A stretch of DNA of 64,000 bases, taken from assembly GCA_025363655.1 (NCBI GenBank), contig JANYDK010000040.1, positions 62,001-126,000 of the forward strand. The letters are read 5' to 3'. A program made the translations under genes and the position numbers. Positions 14,265-64,000 of the stretch are shown piece after piece. This DNA is from Deltaproteobacteria bacterium (GTDB lineage Bacteria; Myxococcota_A; Polyangia; Polyangiales; JADJMO01). The first letter of the stretch is position 1, and each line of letters begins with the position of its first letter. The notes under the pieces were generated by a model. The model ran no database searches. It saw nothing but the letters and a program-made list of their open reading frames with translations, and was not told where the DNA came from.

Positions 14265-14588
14265 ATGATCAGCATGACCGAGAAGGCGTCCGAAAAAGTG
14301 AAGGAAATCGCGGTTGCCGAGGGCCTCGACGGCCAGGGGCTCCGCCTGCGCGTCGTCGGCGGTGGCTGCTCCGGCTTCACCTACGACCTCTATTTCGAGG
14401 ACAAGCCGACCGACATGGACGAGGAGTTCGAGTCGAACGGCGTCAAGCTGTTCATCGATCCGCTCAGCGCCCAGTACCTCGACGAGACGGAAATCGACTA
14501 CGTCGAAGGCCTCCACGGCTCGGGTTTCAAGTTCAACAACCCGAACGTCAAAGGCACCTGCGGCTGCGGCAGCTCGTTCTCTGCGTAG
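14265..14588 (+). CDS. erpA: A-type iron-sulfur cluster carrier (ErpA/IscA/HesB family)
   Basis: A 107-residue A-type carrier that delivers Fe-S clusters to apoproteins. The three conserved cysteines are C35 (GGGCSGF) and C99/C101 (GTCGCG), exactly in family spacing. TAGGAGAG lies 8 bp before the ATG. The whole protein is the family domain with no extension. The symbol erpA is a family-level choice; IscA would be equally compatible from sequence alone. No isc or suf genes are in the window. Likely clients nearby include aconitase and the large Fe-S oxidoreductase, but this is only inference. Confidence 0.9.
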   Translation: MISMTEKASEKVKEIAVAEGLDGQGLRLRVVGGGCSGFTYDLYFEDKPTDMDEEFESNGVKLFIDPLSAQYLDETEIDYVEGLHGSGFKFNNPNVKGTCGCGSSFSA

Positions 14589-21003: not shown

Positions 21004-24000
21004 ATGCGCGCGACGGTCGTTCGAGGAGCACGCACCCACAACCTGAAGGGCGTCGATCTCGAGCTGCGGCCGGGCGAATTGGTCGCGCTCACTGGGCCCT
21101 CGGGTGCCGGAAAATCGAGCCTCGCCGTCGACACGATCTACGCCGAAGGTCAGCGGCGCTTCGTCGAGTCGTTCTCGCCGTACGCGCGTCAGTTCCTCGA
21201 GCGGCTCGATCGTCCGCCCGCCGATTCGATCGAGCCGGTCGCTGCCGCCGTGGCGGTCGATCGTCGCGCGCCCATCAAATCGAGCCGTTCCACGGTGGCG
21301 ACGATGGCCGAGCTGGAACCGTTCCTCGCCGCGCTCTTCGCCCGCGAAGCCGTGCCGACCTGCCCCGATTGCGAGCTCCCCGCGATCGTCGCCGATGCTT
21401 CGAAGGCCGCGCACACAGCCATCGCCGAGCTTGGAGCCGAGCTCGAAGGCGACGCGCGGGCCCTCGTCACCTATCCCACGCGGGTCGGTTCGGCAGACGA
21501 ATATCTCGTGCTCCGCGAGTCGCTGGCGCGCAACGGTGTCCGACGTCTGCGCGTCGCCGGCGCCGTTCGCAGCATCGACGACGTACGCCCGAGCGAGGCA
21601 GCGTCGCTCCCCGTCGAAGTGGTGGTCGATCGCATCCATCGTGGCGCGGGTGACGAGACTCGTCTGCGCGAAGCCGTCGAGCGTGCGTGGGCCGCCTCCG
21701 AAGGTCGCGCGCGCCTCGTCATCGAGCCGAGCGATCGCGTCGTCACCCTCACGCGTGGGCTCGCTTGCCCTCGTTGCGCGCGCACGTTCGAGCCGCCGCG
21801 TCCCGGCCTCTTCTCGTACAACAACGCCGCCGGCGCTTGTCCGACCTGTCGCGGTTTCGGTCGCACCATCGGCATCGACTGGGCGAAGGTGGTCCCCGAT
21901 CCTGGGAAATCGCTCGCGCAAGGCGCCATTCGTGCGTGGGCCGGCGCCTCGGCGGAGTGGGAGCGCGGCGAGCTCGCCAAACTTTGTCGTCGTCACGCGA
22001 TTCCGATGTCGACGCCGTGGCGCGCGCTCACCGACCCACAACGCGCTCTCGTCCTCGACGGCGAACCAGGTGGCTACGAAGCAGGTCGTTATCCGGGTGT
22101 GCGTGGTTGGTTCAAGTGGCTCGAATCACGCACCTACAAGATGCACGTCCGCGTGCTCCTCGCCCGCTATCGCGCCTACGATCCGTGCACCGACTGCGGC
22201 GGGGGGCGCCTCAACGCCGAGTCGCGGCGATATCGCGTCGACGGTCTCGATTTGCCGGCATGGCATCGGCTCTCCGCCGCCGCTGCACGGGAACGTCTAG
22301 CGCACCTCGTCTGCCGAGATGGTGGCGCCGCGCGCGCCGCCGAGGTCCTGCGCTCGCGGCTCGACTACCTCGCTGCCGTCGGCCTCGGTCACCTCGTCCT
22401 CGATCGCTCGGCACGCACGCTCTCCGGCGGTGAAGCGCAACGCGTCGGTCTCACGGCAGCGCTCGGCACTTCACTGGTCGGCGCGATGTTCGTCATCGAC
22501 GAGCCGACGGTCGGCCTCCACGTCTCCGACGTTCCGCCGCTCCTCGAAGCGCTCCGCTCCCTCGCCCGTGCAGGCAACGCCGTCATCGTCATCGAGCACG
22601 ATTTGCAGGTGGTGCGCGCCTGCGATCGCGTCGTCGAGCTCGGGCCTGGAGCCGGCCCCGACGGCGGTCGCATCCTCTTCGACGGCTCGCCAGCCGAGCT
22701 CGCCGCGCGCCCCGATCTCGCCACCGGTGAAGCACTCTCGCGTCGGCGCTCGCTCGAGGAACGAACGCCGCGAAAGTCGCGAGGTGCCCTGCGCATCCGC
22801 AACGCGCGCGCCCACAACCTCCATGGCCTCGACGTCTCCATCCCCCTCGGCGTCCTCGTCGTCGTCAGCGGCGCCTCTGGAAGCGGCAAATCGACGCTCG
22901 TCGGCTCCATTCTCGCTCCAGCCGCGGCACGCGCGGCGGGTGACTCGTCCTTCGACCCGCCGCTCGCACACGATGGCATCGACGGTCTCGCGGCGATCAC
23001 CCACGTCGTGCACGTCGACCAGTCACCGCTCGGGCGCACCTCGCGCGGGAACCCGGCGACGTATACCAAGGCTTGGGACTCGGTGCGCGAGCTCTTCGCG
23101 AAGGACGGCGAGCTCCTCGGCGAAGGCGAGCTCCCGCCGGCCGCGCACTTCTCCTTCAACGCCGACGGTGGTCGATGCGAGGTCTGCAGCGGCGAAGGCT
23201 TCGAAACCGTCGAGATGCAGTTCCTCGCCGACGTCGCCATCCGCTGTCCCGTCTGCCGCGGTCGACGCTTCCGAGACTCGATCCTCGCGGTCCAACTGCG
23301 CGGCAAGAACGTCGCCGACCTCCTCGAGACCACCGTCGACGAAGCCCTCCGCTGGGCGCGCGAATCGCCTCGAAATGAATCGCCTCGAAATAGGGGGAAA
23401 GAGACTCGTCCTTCGACGCCGTGGAAGAAGCTCGTCGCCGCCCTCCAGCCCATCTCCGAGGTCGGGCTCGGGTATCTCCCGCTCGGCCAACCGCTGCCCA
23501 CGCTCTCGGGCGGTGAGGCCCAACGGCTCAAGCTCGCGCGTGCGCTCGTCGCCGCGGGTGACGGTGGCGACGACGATCGACGCGACGCCGAAGGAACGCT
23601 CGTCATCGTCGACGAACCGAGCGCAGGCCTCCACGCGCGCGACATCGCCAAGGTCCTCGCGGCGCTCTCCAAGTTGGTCGACCGCGGCGTCAGCGTCGTC
23701 GTCGTCGAGCACGACCTCGACTTCATCGTCGCAGCCGACCACGTGATCGATCTCGGCCCCGGTGGCGGCGGCGAGGGCGGACGCATCGTCGGCGAGGGGA
23801 GCCCGGCGGACATCATCGCCAGCGGCTCCCGCACGGGCCTCGCGCTGCGAGACTTCTTGACCCCTGCGAAATCGACGCCAGTACGGAAAAATAAGCGTGA
23901 ATGTGCGCCCGCGATGCTCGAGCACATCCACGTGCACCACGCGCGCGAGCACAACCTGAAAGACGTCTCCACGCAGTTGCCGCGCGACGCGCTCATCGTC

Positions 24001-26529
24001 GTCACGGGCCCCTCGGGGAGCGGCAAGTCGACGTTGGCCTTCGACGTCGTCTTCGCCGAAGGGCAACGGCGCTTCCTCGAGACGCTCTCGCCCTACGCCC
24101 GTCAGTTCCTCCCGACGCTGCCGCGGCCCGACGTCGAGTCGGTCCTTGGCGTGCCTCCGTCGATCGCCCTCGAGCAGCGGACGACGCGCGGCGGGCGCAC
24201 CTCGACGGTCGCCACCGTGACCGAGGCGGCGCACTACCTCCGCCTGCTCTACGCCAAGGTAGGCACGCCGCACTGCCCGAAGTGCGAGGAACCGATCGTC
24301 AGCAGTGACCCCGGAACCATCGTGCGACGGCTTCGCGCGCTCGAGGGCGAGGTCGAGGTCTACGCCGCCGCCGTTCGTGCGCGCAAGGGCACGCACCTCG
24401 ACGTCTTCACCCACGCCGCCCGCGCCGGCTATCTAGAGGCGCGCGTCGATGGCGCGCTCGTCTCCGTCGACCCGCCGCCCAAGCTCGCCCGCAACCAAGA
24501 GCACACCGTCGAGCTCCTCGCCTTCCGCGGTGCGCCCCGCGATCTCGACGAAGCCCGCATCGCCGACGCCATCGCGCGGGGCGCCGGCGAGCTCCACGTC
24601 GTGCATCGACTCGCGAACGAGACCGCGAAGACCGCGAAGGCCGCGAAGGCCGCGAAGGCCGCGAAGACTGCCAAGCCTCGGGCGACCGAGCTCACCTTCT
24701 CGACGCGCCGCGCGTGCCCGAAGTGTGGCACCGGCGTCCCCGAGCTCGACCCACGCTGGTTCTCCTTCAACACCAAACAAGGCCAATGCGAGACCTGCGA
24801 GGGGACGGGCGTCAGCGGGCCCATCGAAGAAGACGAGAGCGCCGATCCGACCCAGGACCCGTGTAAGGCCTGCGGAGGCTCGCGGCTCGGACCGGTGCCT
24901 CGGCGAGTCCGCCTCGACGGAGAGACGTATGCGTCGCTCACCCATCGCGCCATCGACGACGCCATCGTTCGTGTCGACGCGCTCGAAAAGGTGCTCCTCG
25001 CCGACCAAGCGCTGCAGCCACTCGCCGCCGCGCCGCTCGCCGAGCTCCGTCGTCGCCTCGCCTTTCTCGGCCGCGTCGGCCTCGGTTACCTCGCGCTCGA
25101 TCGACCGGCCTCGACGCTTTCGGGAGGCGAAATGCAGCGCCTTCGCCTCGCGGCGCAGCTCGGCTCCGGGCTCACCGGCGCGCTCTACGTGCTCGACGAG
25201 CCGACCATTGGCCTCCACCCGCGCGACACGGGGCGTCTCCTCGAGAACCTGCGCGCGCTCGTGGACACCGGCTCCACCGTCCTCGTCGTCGAGCACGACG
25301 AAGAGACCATCCGCGCTGCCGATCACCTCGTCGATCTCGGTCCCACCGGCGGCCTCGGCGGAGGTCACATCGTCGCCGAAGGACGCGCCGAAGACGTGCT
25401 CGCCGATCCTCGCTCTCCCACCGCCGAAGCTCTCCGCGCGCCGCTCCCGCCGCTCGCCCATCGCCCTTGCGACGGCCCTGCGATCACCCTCGTCGGCGCG
25501 CGCGGACACAACCTCGCTGGCGTCGACTTCACGGTGCCCATCGGCAAGATGACGGTGGTCGTCGGCGTCTCCGGCAGCGGGAAATCGACGCTCGTCCGTC
25601 GCGTCTTCTACCCCGCCGTCCGCAACGCGCTGGGGCTCGCCGCCGAGACTCCACTGCCCTTCAAGAAGCTCCGCGGGGCCGAAAAACTAGGCCGCGCGCT
25701 CGCCGTCGATCAGTCGCCCATCGGTCGCACGCCACGCTCGGTGCCGGCGACATTCCTCGGCATCTTCGATCACATACGAAAGTTGTATTCCCTCACCACC
25801 GACGCGCAGGTCCGCGGCTTCTCCGCGGGTCGCTTCTCTTTCAATGGCACCGGTGGCGGCCGCTGCGCCGCGTGCGCTGGCGCCGGCGTCGTCGTCAGCG
25901 AGATGTCGTTCCTCCCCGACGTCGTCTCTCCCTGCGAAGCCTGCGACGGGCTCCGTTACGAGCCGGGCACGCTCGGCGTTCGCTACCTCGGTCAGTCGAT
26001 CGGCGAGGTGCTGAAGATGACGGCGCACGACGCCGCCGAGCTCTTCGCGGCGCACCCCGCCATCCATCGTCCGCTGCGCGTGCTCGACGATCTCGGCGTC
26101 GGCTATCTCGCGCTCGGACAAGGCTCCAACACTCTCAGCGGCGGGGAAGCACAGCGCCTCAAGCTCGCCGCCGAGCTCTCGGAGACGAGCCGTCACCTCC
26201 CGACCCTCTACGTCCTCGACGAGCCGACCACCGGCCTCCACCTCGGAGACGTCCGGCGCCTCATCGACGTCCTTCGTCGCCTCGTCGATCGCGGCGACAC
26301 GCTCGTGATCGTCGAGCACCACCCGGAGGTCATCGCCCTCGCCGATCACGTCGTCGAGCTCGGTCCCGAGGGAGGCAGCTCGGGCGGTCGCATCGTCGCC
26401 GTCGGCACGCCACGCGAGGTCTCCCGCATCGACAGCGCCACGGGTCGCGTCCTTCGCGCGCGCACCAAAAAGAAAACGGGCGAGGGTCTCTCCTCGCCCG
26501 CCTTCAGCAATCGAACGCCGAGGTCTTAG
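21004..26529 (+). CDS. uvrA: Double-length UvrA: two complete UvrA units in one polypeptide
   Basis: UvrA is the damage-sensing ABC ATPase of nucleotide excision repair, usually ~940 residues working as a dimer. Here one 1841-residue chain holds two full units. Unit 1 (1 to ~955) has Walker A at 31 (GPSGAGKS) and 623 (GASGSGKS), LSGGE signatures near 471 and 833, and both zinc modules (CPRC...CPTC; CEVC...CPVC). Unit 2 begins at an internal Met, M971, with MLEHIHVHHAREHNLKD, which is what a normal UvrA start looks like. It has Walker A at 1002 and 1521, signatures incl. one near 1710, and zinc modules CPKC...CETC and CAAC...CEAC. All four ATP sites look intact. Units are clearly diverged. Stop codon overlaps the convergent lipoprotein stop. 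Confidence 0.93.
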   Translation: MRATVVRGARTHNLKGVDLELRPGELVALTGPSGAGKSSLAVDTIYAEGQRRFVESFSPYARQFLERLDRPPADSIEPVAAAVAVDRRAPIKSSRSTVATMAELEPFLAALFAREAVPTCPDCELPAIVADASKAAHTAIAELGAELEGDARALVTYPTRVGSADEYLVLRESLARNGVRRLRVAGAVRSIDDVRPSEAASLPVEVVVDRIHRGAGDETRLREAVERAWAASEGRARLVIEPSDRVVTLTRGLACPRCARTFEPPRPGLFSYNNAAGACPTCRGFGRTIGIDWAKVVPDPGKSLAQGAIRAWAGASAEWERGELAKLCRRHAIPMSTPWRALTDPQRALVLDGEPGGYEAGRYPGVRGWFKWLESRTYKMHVRVLLARYRAYDPCTDCGGGRLNAESRRYRVDGLDLPAWHRLSAAAARERLAHLVCRDGGAARAAEVLRSRLDYLAAVGLGHLVLDRSARTLSGGEAQRVGLTAALGTSLVGAMFVIDEPTVGLHVSDVPPLLEALRSLARAGNAVIVIEHDLQVVRACDRVVELGPGAGPDGGRILFDGSPAELAARPDLATGEALSRRRSLEERTPRKSRGALRIRNARAHNLHGLDVSIPLGVLVVVSGASGSGKSTLVGSILAPAAARAAGDSSFDPPLAHDGIDGLAAITHVVHVDQSPLGRTSRGNPATYTKAWDSVRELFAKDGELLGEGELPPAAHFSFNADGGRCEVCSGEGFETVEMQFLADVAIRCPVCRGRRFRDSILAVQLRGKNVADLLETTVDEALRWARESPRNESPRNRGKETRPSTPWKKLVAALQPISEVGLGYLPLGQPLPTLSGGEAQRLKLARALVAAGDGGDDDRRDAEGTLVIVDEPSAGLHARDIAKVLAALSKLVDRGVSVVVVEHDLDFIVAADHVIDLGPGGGGEGGRIVGEGSPADIIASGSRTGLALRDFLTPAKSTPVRKNKRECAPAMLEHIHVHHAREHNLKDVSTQLPRDALIVVTGPSGSGKSTLAFDVVFAEGQRRFLETLSPYARQFLPTLPRPDVESVLGVPPSIALEQRTTRGGRTSTVATVTEAAHYLRLLYAKVGTPHCPKCEEPIVSSDPGTIVRRLRALEGEVEVYAAAVRARKGTHLDVFTHAARAGYLEARVDGALVSVDPPPKLARNQEHTVELLAFRGAPRDLDEARIADAIARGAGELHVVHRLANETAKTAKAAKAAKAAKTAKPRATELTFSTRRACPKCGTGVPELDPRWFSFNTKQGQCETCEGTGVSGPIEEDESADPTQDPCKACGGSRLGPVPRRVRLDGETYASLTHRAIDDAIVRVDALEKVLLADQALQPLAAAPLAELRRRLAFLGRVGLGYLALDRPASTLSGGEMQRLRLAAQLGSGLTGALYVLDEPTIGLHPRDTGRLLENLRALVDTGSTVLVVEHDEETIRAADHLVDLGPTGGLGGGHIVAEGRAEDVLADPRSPTAEALRAPLPPLAHRPCDGPAITLVGARGHNLAGVDFTVPIGKMTVVVGVSGSGKSTLVRRVFYPAVRNALGLAAETPLPFKKLRGAEKLGRALAVDQSPIGRTPRSVPATFLGIFDHIRKLYSLTTDAQVRGFSAGRFSFNGTGGGRCAACAGAGVVVSEMSFLPDVVSPCEACDGLRYEPGTLGVRYLGQSIGEVLKMTAHDAAELFAAHPAIHRPLRVLDDLGVGYLALGQGSNTLSGGEAQRLKLAAELSETSRHLPTLYVLDEPTTGLHLGDVRRLIDVLRRLVDRGDTLVIVEHHPEVIALADHVVELGPEGGSSGGRIVAVGTPREVSRIDSATGRVLRARTKKKTGEGLSSPAFSNRTPRS
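23362..23391 (+). repeat. 15-bp direct duplication inside uvrA unit 1
   Basis: GAATCGCCTCGAAAT occurs twice back to back and encodes ESPRNESPRN just before RGKETRPSTPWKK. It is in frame and probably lies in a surface loop between the second zinc module and the second ATPase signature. It looks like a recent tandem duplication. Confidence 0.8.
24622..24675 (+). repeat. Six 9-bp units encoding TAK/AAK in uvrA unit 2
   Basis: Consecutive 9-mers (ACCGCGAAG twice, GCCGCGAAG three times, then ACTGCCAAG) encode TAKTAKAAKAAKAAKTAK at residues 1207-1224, right before the first zinc module of the second UvrA unit. The unit is in frame, so copy-number change would alter length without a frameshift. Confidence 0.85.
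26467..26500 (-). terminator. Intrinsic terminator of the Cys-rich lipoprotein gene, inside uvrA coding DNA
   Basis: On the minus strand CGGGCGAGG-(6 nt)-CCTCGCCCG is followed directly by TTTTCTTTTT. It lies 26-60 nt past the lipoprotein stop, within the last codons of uvrA, where the plus-strand reading gives a Lys-rich tail (TKKKTGEG). Confidence 0.85.
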
Positions 26530-26942: not shown

Positions 26943-27183
26943 GTTCGGTCTCCTTCGAAGTTTCGTCCCGCGCTCGGCGGATACATCCAGCGGCACGGGG
27001 CCGCCCGAAGAGTCACTGCAATTCTCGTGTCGCCTGCAGCTGCAAGCAGCCCGACCACACCCCACGACGCACCGAGCCCCTTCGAGGAGCCCGAGCTCGC
27101 GGTTCTAGAACCCCCTGGCTATCCGCCGGGACGACTTTCGTCAACATTTCCGGCCTCGAGAACCCCGGGCCGGGCGACAAAAA

Positions 27184-27284
27184 GCGAGAAGGCCCCACCA
27201 CACCCGCTCTCCGCTGCCGTTGCTGCCTTCCGGCCCTGGCGGGGTTCACGGCGCGCTGTCGGTGGAGCCACGAAGACTCGCTAC
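27184..27284 (-). ncRNA. ffs: Signal recognition particle RNA (small bacterial type)
   Basis: The minus strand contains CCAGGGCCGGAAGGCAGCA followed by ACGGCAGC, the near-universal SRP RNA distal hairpin with its GGAA loop (at 27221-27240). The flanks pair as expected for the long rod: GGCUCCACC (27269-27261) with GGUGGGGCC (27199-27191), and outside them GCGAG with CUCGC, followed by a UUUUU tract at 27183-27179 that acts as terminator. About 100 nt, the size of small bacterial SRP RNA without an Alu domain. It binds Ffh and directs membrane and exported proteins, including the many lipoproteins seen here. Confidence 0.9.
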
Positions 27285-27515: not shown

Positions 27516-27603
<88 letters not shown>

Positions 27604-27604
27604 C

Positions 27605-27698: not shown

Positions 27699-27783
27699 GG
27701 AGAGGTGACCGAGTGGTCGAAGGTGCACGATTGGAAATCGTGTGTACCGAAAGGTACCGAGGGTTCGAATCCCTTCCTCTCCG
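27699..27783 (+). tRNA. tRNA-Ser, anticodon GGA
   Basis: A class II tRNA of 85 nt. Acceptor GGAGAGG pairs with CCTCTCC. The anticodon stem CACGA/TCGTG encloses TTGGAAA, so the anticodon is GGA (27733-27735), reading UCC/UCU. CCA is not encoded. It lies 97 bp after tRNA-Ser(CGA) on the same strand. Confidence 0.95.
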
Positions 27784-27949
27784 CTAGCACGAACTTGCGC
27801 ATGTGACGTGAGGTCACAGCGCCCCGCGGGGTACGCAGGGCGATGATTTCATGATCACGGGCCACTGCGACTCGCAGCGCTCGCGGCGTGACATGGGGGT
27901 CAGGCGCAGGCGCGAGCGCAGGCCCGCGCCGGGTGCGTGCCGAGGGAGT

Positions 27950-30900
27950 TCAGACCCTCGGGATTCCGCCCTTGGTCAGGAGCCGGTCGAGCCAGAGGTT
28001 GGTCAGCTTCTCTTGGGCACTGCTCGCGCGGAGGCGGGCGGCGAGGAAGGGGAAGTCGACCTTGTCCATGTCCTGATCTTGATTGAAGCAGGTGAAGACG
28101 ATGGAGACCTTGCCGGTCACCGGATCGACCTGGCGCTGCAGGCACTGCGCGCAGATCTCTTTCATCATGCACTGCATCGGCGAGTTGATGCTGGCGATGC
28201 CGATGTGATCGGGCTTGAGGTAGGGGGCGAGCGCGTTGCGACGGGCGGCCTTCACGGCGGCCATCATGCGGTCGGAGCCGATGGCGATGATTCGATCCAT
28301 CGTCTGCAGCTCGAACGGCTTCTCGCCGAGCTTGCCGGTGGCGTAGGCGACCATCGCTTCGACGATGTTGCCGACGAACGTCGCGTCCTGCGGACGGCGG
28401 GATTTCGGGGCCGGTTCGCGATCGCACGACCACACGACCTTGTCGGCGGCCATCTCGATGTCGTCCTCGTGATAGACGTCGTCGGGGTTGCGATAGCCGG
28501 CGAAGTACACGACCTTGCAGCCGCGATCGCGGAGCGCTTTGCCGATCGAGAAGAGCACCGCGTTGCCGAGACCGCCGCCGGCGAGGACGACGTGCTCGTT
28601 CTCCGGAATCTCGGTCGGCGCGCCGGTCGGGCCCATCAAGACGACGCGTTGGCCCTTTTTCAGGGTCGCGCAGAGGCGTGAGCTGCCTCCGAGCTCGAGG
28701 ATGATCGTCGAGAGGAGGCCCTTCTCGCGATCGACCCATGCGCCGGTGAGCGCCATGCCCTCGGTGACGAGCGGCGTGTCGTCGACCGTCGCGGCGTCGA
28801 CCTCGAAGTTCTGCAAACGGTAGAACTGGCCCGGCTGGAAGCCGCGGGCGGCGCGAGGGGCGCGGACGATGACCTCGACGATGGTCGGGGTGAGGCGGAT
28901 GACGTCGTGGACCGTGGCGCTCAGCTCGTCGTCGATGAGGCGAGTGAACGAGCGCCAGGCGTCGTCACGCTGAGGCTGCCGCGCAGGATCGAGCTTGGCG
29001 ATTTGGTGCGCGAAGATCTCGGTGACGTAGGGGTGCCCGTCCTTGGCGCTGGCCATCGCCTTGACGACGCTGCCGGCGTAGCGCGGGAGGTTGTCGCCGT
29101 AGAACGACACCGCGTGCTCGCCGTCGCAGTAGCTCGTGAAAAACCCTTGCGAATCGGCCTTGGTCGTCAATTTTCCGTGCTCGTCGACGGCGACGACGTG
29201 CGGCGAGAACGCCTTCGTCTTCGGGTCCATCACGAACGTGCCCGGGTATTCGCGCTCATAGGTCACGTTCGGTGACGTGCCGGCGGCGATGCAGATGGTG
29301 CGCGCGGGGAGCGAGACCGTCTCGCCGGTGGGGACGAGCTTGCCGTCCCTCACCTCGCTGCGATCGAAGAGCATGCCGCTGGCGGCGCCGCGCTCGTCGA
29401 CCAGCACCTCCTTCGGCGAAAGACGCTCGGCGAAGCGCACGCCCTCTTCCAGGGCCTTGATGATCTCTTCGTGATTGAGGCGATAGGCCGGCGATTCGTT
29501 CATCGTGCGGCGATAGGCGACGGTGACGCCGCCCCAGCTGTCGACGAGCGGCGCGAACTTCGGCGCGCGCTTCTCGACGAGGGCCTTGGCGCGCTCTTCG
29601 CGAATCGCCTTGCCGTGGAGGCACATCTCTTCGAGGGCTTCGCGCTCCTCGTCGTCGAACGCGCGCCAGACGACCTCCTTGCCGCGTTCGGCCTCGAGGG
29701 TCTCCATGCGCGCGAGCGTGCGCTCGACCTGCACCACGTAGTACGCGGCTAGCTCGGTGCCGGTGTCGATGGCGGTGAGCCCGCCGCCGATGACGAGCGC
29801 GGGGAGGCGCACCTGGAGGTTGGCGAGAGACTGCTTTTTGTAGGCTCCGGTGAGCTGCAGCGCCATGAGGAAGTCGGACGCCTGACGCACGCCACGGGCG
29901 AGCGCGTTGGGCACGTCGATCAGCGTCGGCTTGCCCGCGCCGGCGGCGATGGCGATGTGATGGAAGCCGAGCTTCCACGCCTCTTCGACGGTGATGGTGC
30001 CGCCGAAGCGGACGCCGCCGAAGATGCGGAAGGTGCTCCGCCGAACCAGCGCGAGCGCGATCAGGTCGAGGAAGTTCTTGTCCCAACGAATGGTGATGCC
30101 GTACTCGGCGACGCCGCCGAAGCCGATGGTGCGGCGCGCGTCGAGCTCCTGCGCGAGCGACGAGTAAGCGTGGACCGGCTCGGGATAGACGGCGGTGTCG
30201 CCGTCCCAACGTCCGACCAGCTGCGGTGAAATCGGCTCGATTTTCAGGCCATCGATGCCGACGACGCCGAAGCCCTCGTTGATGAGGTGGTGCGAGAGCG
30301 TGTAGCCCGCGGGGCCGAGGCCGATCACGAGCACGTTCTTGCCGTTGTACGGCTGCGGGTACGGACGACGGACGTTGAGCGGATTCCAGCGCGTGAGGAG
30401 CGTGTAGATCTCGACGCCCCACGGCAGCGCGAGGACGTCGGTGAGCGCGCCCGTTTCTGCTTGCGGGATGTTGACCGGATCTTGCTTCTGGTAAATGCAC
30501 CCCTTCATGCAGTCGTTGCAGATGCGGTGACCGGTGCCGGGGCACATCGGGTTGTCGATGGTGACGAGGGCGAGCGAGCCGATGACTCGACCGGCGCGGC
30601 GGAGCTCGTGCATCTCGCCGATGCGCTCCTCGAGCGGGCAGCCGGCGAGCGAGACGCCGAGCGGGTTCTTCTTCAGCTTCGGCTCGGCGATGGGGCTGAC
30701 GATCGGCGCCGCTTCTCCGGGCTTCGCCTTCGGCGTCGGCTCGACGAGGCCACGACGGCAGCTGTCCTTCTCGCGATCGTGGCAGAGGATGCAGTAGTCG
30801 ACCTCGTTGGCGACATCGAGGCGCTCCATGCGGCGGTCGGTGAGCCCGAAGCCGTCGCGCGCGCGGCGTGAGTCTTCGGGGCCGACGGAGATCTCGGGGA

Positions 30901-31840
30901 TCTTCTCGTCGGGGCGACGAAGGTGCACGAGATGGTGGTGATCGACGTTCGTCGGCGTGCGGAACATCACCCAGCCCGGCCGATGCGCGAGCCCTTCGTC
31001 CGGGCGCAACGGGCCTTCCTTTGCCCAGGTGAGCGCGTGCTTCCCAGCTTCTTCGGCGATGGCGGCGGCGCCGCGGACGATCACCTCGAGCATGCCGGTG
31101 AGCAGCTCTTTGGCGGCCTTGACGTGCACCGTCTCGTCGCCGTCGGGGTGGTGGAGGAGCGACGCGAGGACGCCTCCGGTAGCGACGTCGGCGGCGAGCG
31201 CGTGGCGCCACTTCGAGACCTTCTCGAGCTCTTCGGCGGTGACGGTGGCGCCGCCTTTGGCGAGGACCTTGGCGCAGCGCTCTTCGAGATCGAGCAGCGG
31301 GCCGACGACGGTGGCGACGGTGCCTTCGTCTTCGCCGAGCGTCTGCGGCACGTGGTCGACGATGGCGAGGAGCACGCGCATCGCGGTGCGCGCGTTGGCC
31401 CGCGCAGCGTCGGTGCCGAGCGTGCCGACGAGCTTCACGCCACGCTTGCGCCAGAGATCTTTCTTCATCCGCATGACGGCGCGCTCGACGTCGGCGGCGG
31501 CGTGGAGCGCGCCCAGCTCGGCGTCGATGCCGAAGAGCCAGGCGACGAAGCGGTCGAGGTGATCGCCGGCCTCGATGAGCAACGTCGACTCGGCCGGCCC
31601 ACGCACGCTCGCGCCGCCGCTGTCGCGATAGCCGTCGAAGCGCTTGCCGAGCTCCGGGTCGCTCTCGCGAAGACGAGCGCGGAAGGCCTCGTCGAGGCGG
31701 CGGAGCGCGACCGGATCGTAGAGATCGTGATACGTGAAGCCGCCACGCAACGAGAGCGTGGGGGTGGGCGTTTGGGCAGCGGCGCGATCACGACCTAGGG
31801 CAGCGGCGGCGGCGACGTCGACGGGAGCGTGGGTACTCAT
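27950..31840 (-). CDS. Large fused flavin/iron-sulfur NAD(P)H oxidoreductase (NfnB-NfnA-like)
   Basis: 1296 residues in four parts. About 1-340 is an all-alpha region I do not recognise. About 345-450 is cysteine-rich (YCILCHDREKDSC; then CPGTGHRICNDCMKGC), matching the Fe-S N-terminus of GltD/NfnB-type proteins. About 490-950 is a GltD-like flavoprotein with FAD motif VIGLGPAGYTLSHH near 500 and a second nucleotide site VIGGGLTAIDTGTE near 680. About 960-1296 is a PyrK/NfnA-like FAD/NAD module (FQPGQFYRLQNF; LAGGGLGNAV) ending in a [2Fe-2S]-type set CMMKEICAQC plus a later Cys. The order matches NfnB and NfnA joined in one chain. Electron bifurcation between NADH, NADPH and ferredoxin is a family-based hypothesis only. 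Confidence 0.8.
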   Translation of the reverse strand: MSTHAPVDVAAAAALGRDRAAAQTPTPTLSLRGGFTYHDLYDPVALRRLDEAFRARLRESDPELGKRFDGYRDSGGASVRGPAESTLLIEAGDHLDRFVAWLFGIDAELGALHAAADVERAVMRMKKDLWRKRGVKLVGTLGTDAARANARTAMRVLLAIVDHVPQTLGEDEGTVATVVGPLLDLEERCAKVLAKGGATVTAEELEKVSKWRHALAADVATGGVLASLLHHPDGDETVHVKAAKELLTGMLEVIVRGAAAIAEEAGKHALTWAKEGPLRPDEGLAHRPGWVMFRTPTNVDHHHLVHLRRPDEKIPEISVGPEDSRRARDGFGLTDRRMERLDVANEVDYCILCHDREKDSCRRGLVEPTPKAKPGEAAPIVSPIAEPKLKKNPLGVSLAGCPLEERIGEMHELRRAGRVIGSLALVTIDNPMCPGTGHRICNDCMKGCIYQKQDPVNIPQAETGALTDVLALPWGVEIYTLLTRWNPLNVRRPYPQPYNGKNVLVIGLGPAGYTLSHHLINEGFGVVGIDGLKIEPISPQLVGRWDGDTAVYPEPVHAYSSLAQELDARRTIGFGGVAEYGITIRWDKNFLDLIALALVRRSTFRIFGGVRFGGTITVEEAWKLGFHHIAIAAGAGKPTLIDVPNALARGVRQASDFLMALQLTGAYKKQSLANLQVRLPALVIGGGLTAIDTGTELAAYYVVQVERTLARMETLEAERGKEVVWRAFDDEEREALEEMCLHGKAIREERAKALVEKRAPKFAPLVDSWGGVTVAYRRTMNESPAYRLNHEEIIKALEEGVRFAERLSPKEVLVDERGAASGMLFDRSEVRDGKLVPTGETVSLPARTICIAAGTSPNVTYEREYPGTFVMDPKTKAFSPHVVAVDEHGKLTTKADSQGFFTSYCDGEHAVSFYGDNLPRYAGSVVKAMASAKDGHPYVTEIFAHQIAKLDPARQPQRDDAWRSFTRLIDDELSATVHDVIRLTPTIVEVIVRAPRAARGFQPGQFYRLQNFEVDAATVDDTPLVTEGMALTGAWVDREKGLLSTIILELGGSSRLCATLKKGQRVVLMGPTGAPTEIPENEHVVLAGGGLGNAVLFSIGKALRDRGCKVVYFAGYRNPDDVYHEDDIEMAADKVVWSCDREPAPKSRRPQDATFVGNIVEAMVAYATGKLGEKPFELQTMDRIIAIGSDRMMAAVKAARRNALAPYLKPDHIGIASINSPMQCMMKEICAQCLQRQVDPVTGKVSIVFTCFNQDQDMDKVDFPFLAARLRASSAQEKLTNLWLDRLLTKGGIPRV

Positions 31841-31943: not shown

Positions 31944-32864
31944 TCAGTTGAGAGTGATGCGGCCCAGCGTGTGGGTCGCGCGGTCGACCTCGGGGGCGAG
32001 GCCGGCCTGGGAAGCAGGCCTCGATCGCTTCACTTTGGCGAGAAATGCCGAGAGGTAGATCTGCGCCGAGCGTCGATCGCCGCGGGCGAAGGCGAGCTCG
32101 CCGAGGACGAAGCGCCCGTAGCCCTCGCTGGCGCGGTCGGTCTTGAGCGCGTGGAAGGACGCGTCGAGGTCGGAGTCGTCGCCGCGGGCGTGCCGGGCGA
32201 GGGCAATTTGTCCATGGAGGAGCGCGACGACGGCGTCTTCGCACCCGAGCGCCCGCTCGAGCACCTCTTCGGCCTCGGCAGCGCGGCCACGGAGGTAGAG
32301 CACCGCGCCGAGCGTCGAGAGGTGGAAGCCGAGCCGTGCCGGCGGAGAGGCGTCGGCCGCAGCGCGCAGATGCTCGATGGCCGCGTCGAGGGCGCCAAGG
32401 GCCTGGCAAGCACGGGCGGCGTCGTGGCGGGCGACGTCGGGCATCACGCCGAGTTCGACGAGCTGCTCGGCGACCTGCCGGGCGCGCACGAAGTGTCCGC
32501 CTTCGAGCTCGCCGAGATAGAGCTGGCGGAGGAGCAATCCCTGCGTGTCGATGTCGCAGATGCCGACGAGACCCGCGCGCGCGTGCTTGACGCGAAGGGC
32601 CGGCGTCTTCGCCTTGAGCGCGCTCTCGAGACAAGCCGTCGCCGTCCTCGGCCTCGACGCTTTGCGCGCGGCGGCCGCTTCCGCGGGCGGCAGAGTGCGA
32701 GTGGAACGCGCGGAGGTCACGACCTCTTGCTCTTGCGTCGGCGCAGGGGCGACCGAGGTCGAAGAAGCCGCGCGCGGCGTGACTCGGAAGCGACCGGACG
32801 CGGCGGGCGCGTCAGGCTCGGGGGGCCGCGAGGGTTTTTCGCCAGCGTCCTTCGACTTAGGCAT
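31944..32864 (-). CDS. TPR-like repeat protein
   Basis: 306 residues. An N-terminal disordered, Pro/Ala/Ser-rich stretch of about 85 residues is followed by helical hairpins with TPR character: LRQLYLGELEGGHFVRARQVAEQL, ACQALGALDAAIEHLRAAA, LGAVLYLRGRAAEAEEVLER, and LGELAFARGDRRSAQIYLSAF. There is no signal peptide or membrane segment, so a cytoplasmic scaffold role is likely. It lies between the large oxidoreductase and a ferredoxin-NADP reductase-like gene on the same strand. Whether it belongs functionally with them is unknown. Confidence 0.7.
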   Translation of the reverse strand: MPKSKDAGEKPSRPPEPDAPAASGRFRVTPRAASSTSVAPAPTQEQEVVTSARSTRTLPPAEAAAARKASRPRTATACLESALKAKTPALRVKHARAGLVGICDIDTQGLLLRQLYLGELEGGHFVRARQVAEQLVELGVMPDVARHDAARACQALGALDAAIEHLRAAADASPPARLGFHLSTLGAVLYLRGRAAEAEEVLERALGCEDAVVALLHGQIALARHARGDDSDLDASFHALKTDRASEGYGRFVLGELAFARGDRRSAQIYLSAFLAKVKRSRPASQAGLAPEVDRATHTLGRITLN

Positions 32865-32950
32865 CTCTCCCTACGCTAGCACCAACTGGGCGAGAGTCGA
32901 GATTGTCCACAGCCTACCCCTCCGGAATCGTTGGAGAAGCGGGATTTGCT

Positions 32951-33667
32951 TTAGTAGTTGAGGAGGACGTCTTCGCGGGCGATGCCGAGCTTCGGGGCGA
33001 CCTCACGGAGACCTTCGATCATCGGCTTGCTGCCGGCGGCGAAGAACATCGCGCCTTCGAGCGGCCAGTGCTGCTGGGCGGCGACGTGCTGTACGTATCC
33101 CGAGAAGACGCCGGGGACGTCGAGCTGCTGACGCGAGAGCGCATAGACGACGGTGACGCCGAGGCGCCGCAGCTCTTCGAGCTCGGGTCTCAGCGCGATC
33201 GATTGCTCGTCACGGACGCCGTAGAGAACGAACGTGCGCGCGGCGTCGCCGCTCGTCGACCTGGCTTGCGCCGTCGAGAGCAAGGCAGCGATGCCGCTCC
33301 CGTTGGCCGCGAGGACGAGCGGACGTTTCGCAGCGCGATCGAGCGGAAAACCAGGCCCATTCGCTTCCGAGACGAGGAACTTCGCACCAGGCCGTTGGGT
33401 GCCGAAGCGATCGGCCATCGCGCCGCCATCTTTGACGATGAGCTGCCACTCGGCGGAGCCGGGCGGGCTCGTGAGGACGAACGTGCCCTTGAGCGCGCCG
33501 GGGATGGTCGCGTCCTCGTCACCGCGGTGACCGCCGTCGTGGCGCACCTCGATGTACTGGCCGTGGTGTAGGTGCGTGCGCGCCGCTTCGGGGGCGATGG
33601 CGAGCCGGATACGATGAAGGCTGCCCCCGACGTGTTTACGCTCCAAGAGGGAGGCGATCGTCGGCAT
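32951..33667 (-). CDS. Ferredoxin-NADP(+) reductase-like flavoprotein
   Basis: 238 residues with the FNR two-domain layout. The beta-barrel FAD part has HHGQYIEVRH and the later FVLTSPPGS. The NAD(P) part has KRPLVLAANGSGIAALLS, RTFVLYGVRD and a C-terminal FFAAGSKPMIEGLREV, matching the conserved CG/AGxxxM region. There are no cysteine clusters, so it lacks an own Fe-S domain. It would pass electrons between NAD(P)H and an unidentified carrier. It is same-strand with the TPR protein and the large oxidoreductase downstream, so this may be a small redox neighbourhood. Confidence 0.75.
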   Translation of the reverse strand: MPTIASLLERKHVGGSLHRIRLAIAPEAARTHLHHGQYIEVRHDGGHRGDEDATIPGALKGTFVLTSPPGSAEWQLIVKDGGAMADRFGTQRPGAKFLVSEANGPGFPLDRAAKRPLVLAANGSGIAALLSTAQARSTSGDAARTFVLYGVRDEQSIALRPELEELRRLGVTVVYALSRQQLDVPGVFSGYVQHVAAQQHWPLEGAMFFAAGSKPMIEGLREVAPKLGIAREDVLLNY

Positions 33668-33744
33668 TCGTCAGGAGTAGCGTGCGTGACGGCTTCTGTA
33701 CAGAGTCACTACGACGTCTGATTTCGCCGCCAGCGCATCGCTTC

Positions 33745-35199
33745 TCAGACGGGCAGCGGAACCTCGAGCCCCTTGGGGACACGGCGCGGGCCCATCACCC
33801 AGGGAAGCGACAGCCGATGGTAGTTGTGGATGCCTTCGAGGCCGGCGAGGACGCTGGCCAGACCCCACTGCAAGCGGTTGACGAAGGTGTGCTCGACCGG
33901 CATGTGGATCGGCTTCGGGAGGTTGGGGAGCACTTCGCCCTTCTTCCAGATGATTTTTCGCTGGTTGCGCACGAGCAGGCCGACGTTCTCACGGGCGACC
34001 TCGCGGGTGTGCTGGAAGGGCTCGTCGACGGTGAGCGGCGTCATCACGTGCTCGGTGTAGCGCTTGTAAATCGGCCAGCCCTCGGGATCGGTCGGGTCGA
34101 AGCCGTAGACCTCGACGAGCGCGCGATCGAAGTCGGCGTCGGTGCCTTGCATCTTCGCCATCAGCACGCGCTTCATGCCGGCGACCATCTGATCGCTCAT
34201 CACGCGCACGCAGCCGAAGTCGAGGAAGGCGACCTTGACGTCGTCCTTCTTGTTGGGGTCGACGATGAACTTGTAGTTGCCGGGGTGCGGATCGGCGTAG
34301 AGGACGCCGTACTCGTAGAGCGCGCGGAACATGAACGTCCAGATCGACACCGAGGCGACGTTGCGCTGCGACCACGGATTTTCTCGACAGAACGTCTCGT
34401 AGTCGATGCCGTCGATGAACTGGGTGGTGATGACCCGCTTGGTGGTGGTGCCGTGGTAGACGCGCGGGATGACGATCATCGGATCGCCCTCGAACATCGC
34501 GCGAAACGCCTCGGTGGCGTTGGCCTCCTGCGTGTAGTCGATCTCCGCCAAGAAGACGCGCTTGATCTCGGCGAGACCTTCCTTGGTCTGGTAGCGACGA
34601 CCGATGGGGGCGATCATCTGCTCCATCAGCGCGACCGTCTTGAGGTCGTTCTCGATGGCGGTGTCGATGCCCGGGTATTGCACCTTGACGGCGACGCGCT
34701 CGCCGCTTCGTAGCGTCGCGCGGTGCACCTGGCCGATGGAGGCGGCGGCGAACGGCTCGCGTTCGAACTCGGCGAAGATTTCGCTCGACGGTCCGCCCAG
34801 CTCTGCGCGAATCACCTTCTCCGCGGCTTCGGCCGAGAGCGGCGGCGCCTTCGCCTGCAGCTTCTTCAGCACTTCTTGGAATTTGTCTTCGTAGCCAGGA
34901 GGCGCGAGGCCGTCGATGTAGCTGGCCATCTGCCCGAGCTTGAGCGGGAGGCCCTTCATCTCGCCAAGCGTCTTCAGCATCTGCTCGGCGGTCTTGCGCG
35001 CTTCTTTCAGCACGCGCTCGCGGCCTTCGCGCTCTTGTTCTTCCGTCTGATCGGGGCCTTGCAAGCGGCGACGCACGCCTTCGTAGGCGAGGTTGGCGGC
35101 GCGCGGCGCGAGAGCTCCGAGGCGCGCGAGTCGACCGAGGCGCCCAGTGGGCGGCTTGGAGGGGCGTTTGACGTTGCCGTCGTCGCGGTCGTTGCTCAT
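33745..35199 (-). CDS. ABC1/UbiB (AarF) family atypical kinase
   Basis: 484 residues with all signature blocks of the family: PLKLGQMASYIDG (KxGQ), FAAASIGQVHRA (Ala-rich loop replacing the kinase glycine loop), VAVKVQYPG (catalytic Lys), YADPHPGNYKF and VAFLDFGCVR (metal-binding). Members support ubiquinone or other isoprenoid-lipid metabolism and hydrolyse ATP. No Ubi biosynthetic genes are adjacent, so I leave the symbol empty. It is divergent from the TerB-like gene, with about 100 bp between starts. Confidence 0.9.
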   Translation of the reverse strand: MSNDRDDGNVKRPSKPPTGRLGRLARLGALAPRAANLAYEGVRRRLQGPDQTEEQEREGRERVLKEARKTAEQMLKTLGEMKGLPLKLGQMASYIDGLAPPGYEDKFQEVLKKLQAKAPPLSAEAAEKVIRAELGGPSSEIFAEFEREPFAAASIGQVHRATLRSGERVAVKVQYPGIDTAIENDLKTVALMEQMIAPIGRRYQTKEGLAEIKRVFLAEIDYTQEANATEAFRAMFEGDPMIVIPRVYHGTTTKRVITTQFIDGIDYETFCRENPWSQRNVASVSIWTFMFRALYEYGVLYADPHPGNYKFIVDPNKKDDVKVAFLDFGCVRVMSDQMVAGMKRVLMAKMQGTDADFDRALVEVYGFDPTDPEGWPIYKRYTEHVMTPLTVDEPFQHTREVARENVGLLVRNQRKIIWKKGEVLPNLPKPIHMPVEHTFVNRLQWGLASVLAGLEGIHNYHRLSLPWVMGPRRVPKGLEVPLPV

Positions 35200-63828: not shown

Positions 63829-64000
63829 ACCCGGGTGTCATCTCCGTCGCTTATCTGATCGCGGGCGTGCTCTTCATCCGCAGCCTCGGCGGCCTCTCCA
63901 AGCAAGAGACGGCGAAGGACGGCAACCTCTACGGCATGGTCGGGATGGCGCTCGCCGTCGTCGTCACCGCCATCATGTGGTCGTCGGGTGCGGGCGCGGG
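63825..64000 (+). CDS. pntB: NAD(P) transhydrogenase subunit beta, N-terminal part
   Basis: The ATG overlaps the pntA TGA (ATGA), so the two are translationally coupled. The 58 visible residues ([20 protein letters not shown], then [18 protein letters not shown]) match the membrane N-terminus of PntB. The gene is cut by the window end. Confidence 0.9.

Follow-up and report, generated by a model that had tools for sequence, protein, structure and literature searches.

A single-chain Nfn-like protein with an added helical domain and an apparently modified high-potential branch in lineages regarded as aerobic

Here we describe a 1296-residue protein in which a helical N-terminal domain, an NfnB/NfnL-like part and an NfnA/PyrK-like module follow one another in a single chain. 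Its gene lies in a 64,000-nucleotide stretch of DNA from a Deltaproteobacteria bacterium of the order Polyangiales (GenBank assembly GCA_025363655.1, contig JANYDK010000040.1, positions 62,001 to 126,000), the whole of which is called the window below. The order of the domains, their fold class and the conservation of the cluster ligands are established. Judged by these sequence features, the protein is probably a single-chain cytoplasmic Nfn-like NAD(P)H:ferredoxin oxidoreductase; that its two branches would be coupled, i.e. that it would bifurcate electrons, has in our view slightly less than an even chance.

The first-pass annotation of this DNA considered a single-polypeptide form unexpected. 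Fused Nfn homologues, termed patterns B and C, were already described in 2019 (PMC6405883), and AadN, a pattern-B protein of Rhodopseudomonas palustris, has been studied genetically (PMC9973337). The novelty therefore lies not in the fusion itself; what is new is the added helical domain, the changes to the high-potential branch and the wide spread of the family among lineages regarded as aerobic, the last of which is indeed unexpected. A 2018 survey reported Nfn in one aerobe only and found bifurcating enzymes to be nearly completely absent from aerobic cells (PMC6085437). More than 580 related proteins that keep the low-potential branch intact would either break the rule that flavin-based bifurcation is nearly limited to anaerobes or show how the Nfn scaffold has been adapted to air, and the enzyme is a candidate source of low-potential electrons in lineages that do without ferredoxin-linked 2-oxoacid oxidation.

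Results

Architecture of the fused protein

The open reading frame (ORF) runs through all of its codons without an internal stop, its coordinates (Table 1) are exact, and it is conserved at 46-61% identity over nearly its full length in diverse relatives. Pyr_redox_2 (PF07992) was the only Pfam match, and a weak one. The best matches among solved structures, by sequence, were both subunits of Pyrococcus furiosus Nfn, its paralogue Xfn and Thermotoga maritima NfnAB, and the order of an NfnB-like part followed by an NfnA/PyrK-like module is supported by profile matches to 5jca_L, 5vj7_A, 5jca_S and 4ylf_A. An AlphaFold model of a full-length homologue (L028, 1200 residues), built from 48 aligned sequences with a pLDDT of 88 and a pTM of 0.89, agrees with these profiles: in structural comparisons with VIA, its residues 226-849 matched NfnL (5jfc_L; Z 26.1, 2.4 Å, 434 of 463 residues) and its residues 869-1191 matched NfnS/PyrK (4yry_C; Z 14.0, 2.7 Å, 261 of 265 residues). 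The earlier observation of an NfnB-NfnA fusion in one chain is confirmed; its interpretation, as detailed below, is supported in part.

Table 1. Position of the gene and of its predicted domains and sites in the window
Feature	Window coordinates	Strand	Evidence
Whole gene, helical N-terminal domain + NfnB/NfnL-like + NfnA/PyrK-like, 1296 aa	27950..31840	-	ORF, profile and homologue matches
N-terminal all-helical domain, residues ~28-290, about ten helices	30971..31759	-	AF2 model of window residues 28-302
Two [4Fe-4S] sites, distal C350 C353 C361 C448; proximal C401 C441 C444 E462	30455..30793	-	Conservation and register with PfNfnL
R585, counterpart of PfNfnL R201	30086..30088	-	Arg in 77/77; aligned to 5jca_L YGIPEFRLPK
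NfnB-like FAD + NADP(H) Rossmann domains, residues ~500-945	29006..30343	-	PF07992; VIA 5jfc_L Z 26.1; GxGPAG at 507, GGGLTAID at 685
Y776-R777-R778, YRR NADP(H) phosphate motif; YRK in many relatives	29507..29515	-	Alignment
NfnA/PyrK-like FNR module with [2Fe-2S] site, residues ~965-1296	27953..28948	-	phmmer and HMM to 5jca_S, 4ylf_A; VIA 4yry_C Z 14.0
EGMALT, E1027-T1032, where Nfn has a-FAD motif ERxPxT	28745..28762	-	E 77/77, G 76/77, A 77/77, T 77/77
[2Fe-2S] ligands C1224 C1230 C1233 C1251	28088..28171	-	All four Cys in 77/77

With the NfnAB/NfnSL enzymes used as references (P. furiosus NfnI, 5jca and 5jfc; T. maritima, 4ylf and 4yry), the protein shares the two modules, the complete set of [4Fe-4S] ligands with its Glu, the N5 Arg of the b-FAD and the NADP motif. 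It differs from them in being a single chain with the order reversed (NfnB first), in the added helical domain, in an identity of only about 20-30%, in an insert of 21-39 residues in the ferredoxin-like domain, in a four-Cys [2Fe-2S] site and in EGxALT in place of ERxPxT. Among fused homologues it shares its layout with pattern C, which also has an NfnB-like part followed by a C-terminal NfnA-like part in one chain (PMC6405883). Pattern C is described as exceeding pattern B by about 200 residues; our protein exceeds the 757-residue pattern-B protein by about 540. The NCBIfam models of fused proteins PRK12778, PRK12779 and PRK12775 gave 112-145 bits; PRK12779, which is probably pattern C, gave 120 bits, its cut-off being 1519. 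AadN is likewise a single-chain Nfn homologue and has been proposed to reduce ferredoxin, but by its class it has the opposite module order, no helical domain is reported for it, and it acts in anaerobic aromatic degradation (PMC9973337). DsrL, another GltD/NfnB-type NAD(P)H oxidoreductase that occurs also in sulfur oxidisers, carries a C-terminal ferredoxin domain instead of an FNR module (PMC7596348). A search of open-licence papers found no literature on PRK06567, the nearest curated family (see below), or on Nfn in myxobacteria.

An apparently complete low-potential branch

Conservation at the cofactor sites was counted over 77 aligned full-length relatives. The Fe-S cysteines that the first-pass annotation had seen in the GltD-like part hold up well: seven Cys and one Glu of the two predicted [4Fe-4S] sites are kept in at least 76 of the 77 sequences. 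In the alignment with 5jca_L (GCP..., RVC...), the residues from C401 onward are in register and E462 falls on PfNfnL E126, and C350, C353 and C361 were placed as distal-cluster ligands by their order alone, without a residue-level alignment. Their spacing is unusual, Cx2Cx7C followed by 21-39 residues before CP (the insert from C361 to C401), and differs from Cx2Cx4C. R585 aligns with R201 of PfNfnL, taken here as the Arg that sits at N5 of the bifurcating FAD. For comparison, T. maritima NfnB binds its distal cluster through Cys39, 42, 47 and 100 and its proximal cluster through Cys51, 90, 96 and Glu117, and the YRR motif is given a role in NADP(H) binding (PMC7596348). The YRR or YRK of the family thus indicates NADP(H) as the likely nucleotide. 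No ligand is missing from this branch, a loss that would have spoken against bifurcation, and with the N5 Arg present it looks complete.

The same data bear on the automatic annotation, under which the protein would be a GltD-like subunit or another electron donor of the glutamate synthase type. Its best curated match is NF005128/PRK06567, a model named glutamate synthase beta / 2-polyprenylphenol hydroxylase, and one genome paper gives that name to a Neorickettsia protein. The match has the same domain order and covers residues 328-1113, leaving the first 207 profile positions unmatched by the helical domain; its 603 bits fall short of the cut-off of 1072, and a PyrK-like module is fused to the GltD-like part. 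The source genome also has a separate GltD-like gene, whose product carries Lys at the N5 position (YGIPDFKLEKK) where the 1296-residue protein has Arg, and identity with GltD was rejected on this ground. GltB is not encoded nearby, and no conserved neighbour such as gltB appears among the loci. A glutamate-synthase role is therefore very improbable, and the close match to a characterised enzyme of that kind that would have spoken against the original reading did not turn up.

A high-potential branch that departs from Nfn

Two Nfn motifs, ERxPxT for the a-FAD and DGTGMCGxCRx10CV for the [2Fe-2S] cluster (PMC6405883), are absent from the NfnA-like module. The first is replaced by EGxALT. In place of the Asp and three Cys of the second, the window protein has CMMKEICAQC...C, in which the four Cys are invariant across the family; the Asp of Nfn is credited with raising the cluster potential to +80 mV (PMC6405883). 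Having failed both signatures, the protein was classed as Nfn-like rather than strict Nfn, and its high-potential branch looks modified relative to Nfn. The concern that ligands needed for bifurcation might be lacking thus applies in part to this branch, where the Asp and ERxPxT have been exchanged.

These changes raise the possibility of a non-bifurcating NADPH-ferredoxin oxidoreductase whose C-terminal module would merely be an extra entry site for NAD(P)H or flavin. Apart from the change of Asp to Cys and the loss of ERxPxT, precedents exist in P. furiosus NfnII, which lacks NAD+-dependent activity (PMC6405883), and in NfnSL, where a single altered cluster ligand, as in the replacement of the proximal Glu by Cys, is enough to uncouple the branches (PMC9503767). 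That Glu and the N5 Arg are, in contrast, retained here, and the invariance of the NfnA-like module and of its four Cys in 77 sequences from many phyla argues for an essential role. We consider the non-bifurcating alternative rather unlikely.

The N-terminal helical domain

About 340 residues of all-helical sequence without known relatives had been noted ahead of the NfnB-like part. The helical character and the lack of relatives stand, and the extent is smaller: the NfnL match begins at residue 226 of L028, about residue 295 of the window protein, and the end of the domain was therefore set near residue 290. Modelled alone, window residues 28-302 gave helices only (AF2; pLDDT 90, pTM 0.83). 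A Pfam search with this region returned no match, and neither Foldseek (best E 0.85) nor VIA (best Z 5.1) found a structural relative in the PDB, which does not prove a new fold. The region is present in all 77 relatives, with 230-340 residues preceding the first cluster Cys, and is thus a feature of the family as a whole and not of the source genome. Two of its positions are invariant. Because it contains no conserved Cys and has diverged more quickly than the core, we infer a protein-protein or regulatory module.

A domain of this kind could instead recognise a specific organic or protein substrate that the enzyme would reduce. DPD, a pyrimidine reducer, has the NfnB-like half in common with our protein, and for the helical domain no relative in fold is known. 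A second catalytic domain, a TIM barrel or similar, is however not apparent in the model, and poor conservation of the helical domain fits badly with substrate recognition; a specific-substrate reductase seems improbable.

Distribution of the family

At least 584 homologous stretches were found in one scan of GTDB genome contigs. The best 80 loci come from Myxococcota, Acidobacteriota, Methylococcales and other Gammaproteobacteria, Planctomycetota, Ignavibacteria and others. Occurrence is patchy: the gene is present in 20 of 38 near relatives, in 16 of the 188 genomes sampled from the phylum and in 22 of 149 Acidobacteriota. In a tree of the core, sequences group by phylum and Myxococcota, the window among them, form one branch (97% support), which suggests that the family is old, mainly inherited vertically and often lost. 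Carriers include the cultivable Myxococcus, Corallococcus and Methylococcus capsulatus; members of Methylococcales are methanotrophic, and most of the named hosts are known aerobes. The source genome itself encodes the E1 component of 2-oxoglutarate dehydrogenase and PntB; an NAD-linked 2-oxoglutarate dehydrogenase together with a transhydrogenase, as in aerobes, is in line with the earlier assignment to a probably aerobic lineage. One family member (L062) lies on a contig titled Klebsiella pneumoniae and is almost identical to sequences from gammaproteobacterial metagenome-assembled genomes, so that a mistake in binning or naming probably explains the title.

Exclusion of 2-oxoacid:ferredoxin oxidoreductase in the window's order

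We compared 56 genomes of the window's order, picked by presence (25) or absence (31) of the enzyme, and split their 2-oxoacid:ferredoxin oxidoreductases into two types by TIGR03710 profile score alone (about 1e-187 and better versus weaker). The high-scoring type occurs in none of the 25 genomes with the enzyme and in 27 of the 31 without it (Fisher 4e-12; family-stratified permutation 7e-5, relatedness among the genomes inflating these p-values), and the contrast persists within families f1 and f12. Two controls, 2-oxoglutarate dehydrogenase (53/56) and PntB (49/56), show no clear association with the enzyme, and because both are nearly universal in the set the exclusion is not an assembly artefact. 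Eighteen of the 25 carriers, the source genome included, have no 2-oxoacid:ferredoxin oxidoreductase of any type; a search of the source genome found no alpha subunit of such an enzyme and no canonical NfnAB besides the GltD-like protein and the 1296-residue protein. The exclusion suggests that the enzyme is an alternative ferredoxin reductase; on the simplest reading, either of the two enzymes would suffice to maintain ferredoxin in its reduced form.

The reaction could also run the other way, as a confurcation in which reduced ferredoxin and NADH would be oxidised and NADPH made. This is the physiological direction reported for clostridial Nfn (PMC6405883), and 21 of the 22 carriers among Acidobacteriota also encode a ferredoxin-reducing 2-oxoacid oxidoreductase of some type. 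The 18 carriers just mentioned, in contrast, lack such an oxidoreductase to make the reduced ferredoxin, and in most carriers of the window's order the PntAB transhydrogenase is already a source of NADPH. Confurcation is accordingly unlikely in our estimate.

Candidate partners

The check for ferredoxins proposed at the outset came out positive: small 2[4Fe-4S] ferredoxins (L094, L100) are encoded in the source genome. On plasmid pTcM1 of Acidithiobacillus caldus, fdxA is followed 148 bp further on, in the same orientation, by a homologue. This locus (L120, 833-5970) places the homologue in an apparent operon with fdxA and genes for a HEAT-repeat protein, a 4Fe-4S dicluster protein and a fumarate-reductase-type flavoprotein.

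Proposed function

The assignment as a single-chain ferredoxin reductase is supported by the fold and order of the modules, the cluster ligands and N5 Arg, the YRR/YRK motif, the 2[4Fe-4S] ferredoxins of the genome, the fdxA neighbour on pTcM1 and the exclusion within the order. Its cofactors and substrates are predicted from these observations, as is its probable direction, the reduction of ferredoxin in the window's lineage. In the proposed mechanism, the FAD at R585 would accept electrons from NADPH. One of them would then pass through the proximal Cys3-Glu [4Fe-4S] and the distal Cys4 [4Fe-4S] clusters to a 2[4Fe-4S] ferredoxin; the other would travel by way of the four-Cys [2Fe-2S] cluster and the FAD in the C-terminal FNR module before reaching NAD+ or a different acceptor.

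Several observations weigh against it. With both the [2Fe-2S] Asp and ERxPxT replaced, the altered high-potential branch may serve a different acceptor or may be unable to sustain bifurcation. In Acidobacteriota the exclusion does not appear: the high-scoring oxidoreductase type occurs there in 8 of 22 genomes with the enzyme and 28 of 127 without (p 0.18, not significant). Of 50 carriers of the enzyme from several phyla, 7 also have that type; the exclusion thus gives lineage-specific support only, and as a general rule it was rejected on the Acidobacteriota result. No neighbour gene is widely shared around the family gene, synteny being lineage-local only, and a motif search in 100 loci found no small ferredoxin near the gene, with a motif too narrow to recover even FdxA of pTcM1.

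The broadest form of the proposal is offered tentatively: that these are true single-chain bifurcating ferredoxin reductases, widespread in aerobes, whose high-potential branch has been re-engineered and which carry a helical domain of a new kind, and that in some Myxococcota they supply reduced ferredoxin in place of 2-oxoacid:ferredoxin oxidoreductase.

Genomic neighbourhood

Directly upstream of the gene and on the same strand (31944-35199, -) lie genes for a TPR protein, an FNR-like protein (PF00175, 238 residues) and an ABC1/UbiB-like kinase, an order kept only in close relatives and there in part (G001 and G003). In Myxococcus, the lineage-local synteny reads as tsf-rpsB-pyrH-frr, with names taken from the sequences. 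An A-type Fe-S carrier gene occurs within a few kb of the family gene in five loci; ErpA/IscA-like by sequence, it lies about 2-7 kb away in L013, L043, L107, L110 and L111 and about 13 kb away in the window (14265-14588, +). A gene that reads as DUF72-like is likewise found within a few kb in five loci.

Just downstream lie a small SRP RNA (27179-27275, -) and, next to it, two tRNA-Ser genes (CGA and GGA, at 27516-27604 and 27699-27784, +). The PntB gene of the source genome starts at the end of the window (63843-64000 and beyond; G000:C123:125843-127225). Finally, an ORF of 1841 residues (21004-26529, +) reads as two tandem-fused UvrA-type ABC ATPases with several Walker A and LSGGEAQR motifs, and has a close syntenic match in G003 (L102).

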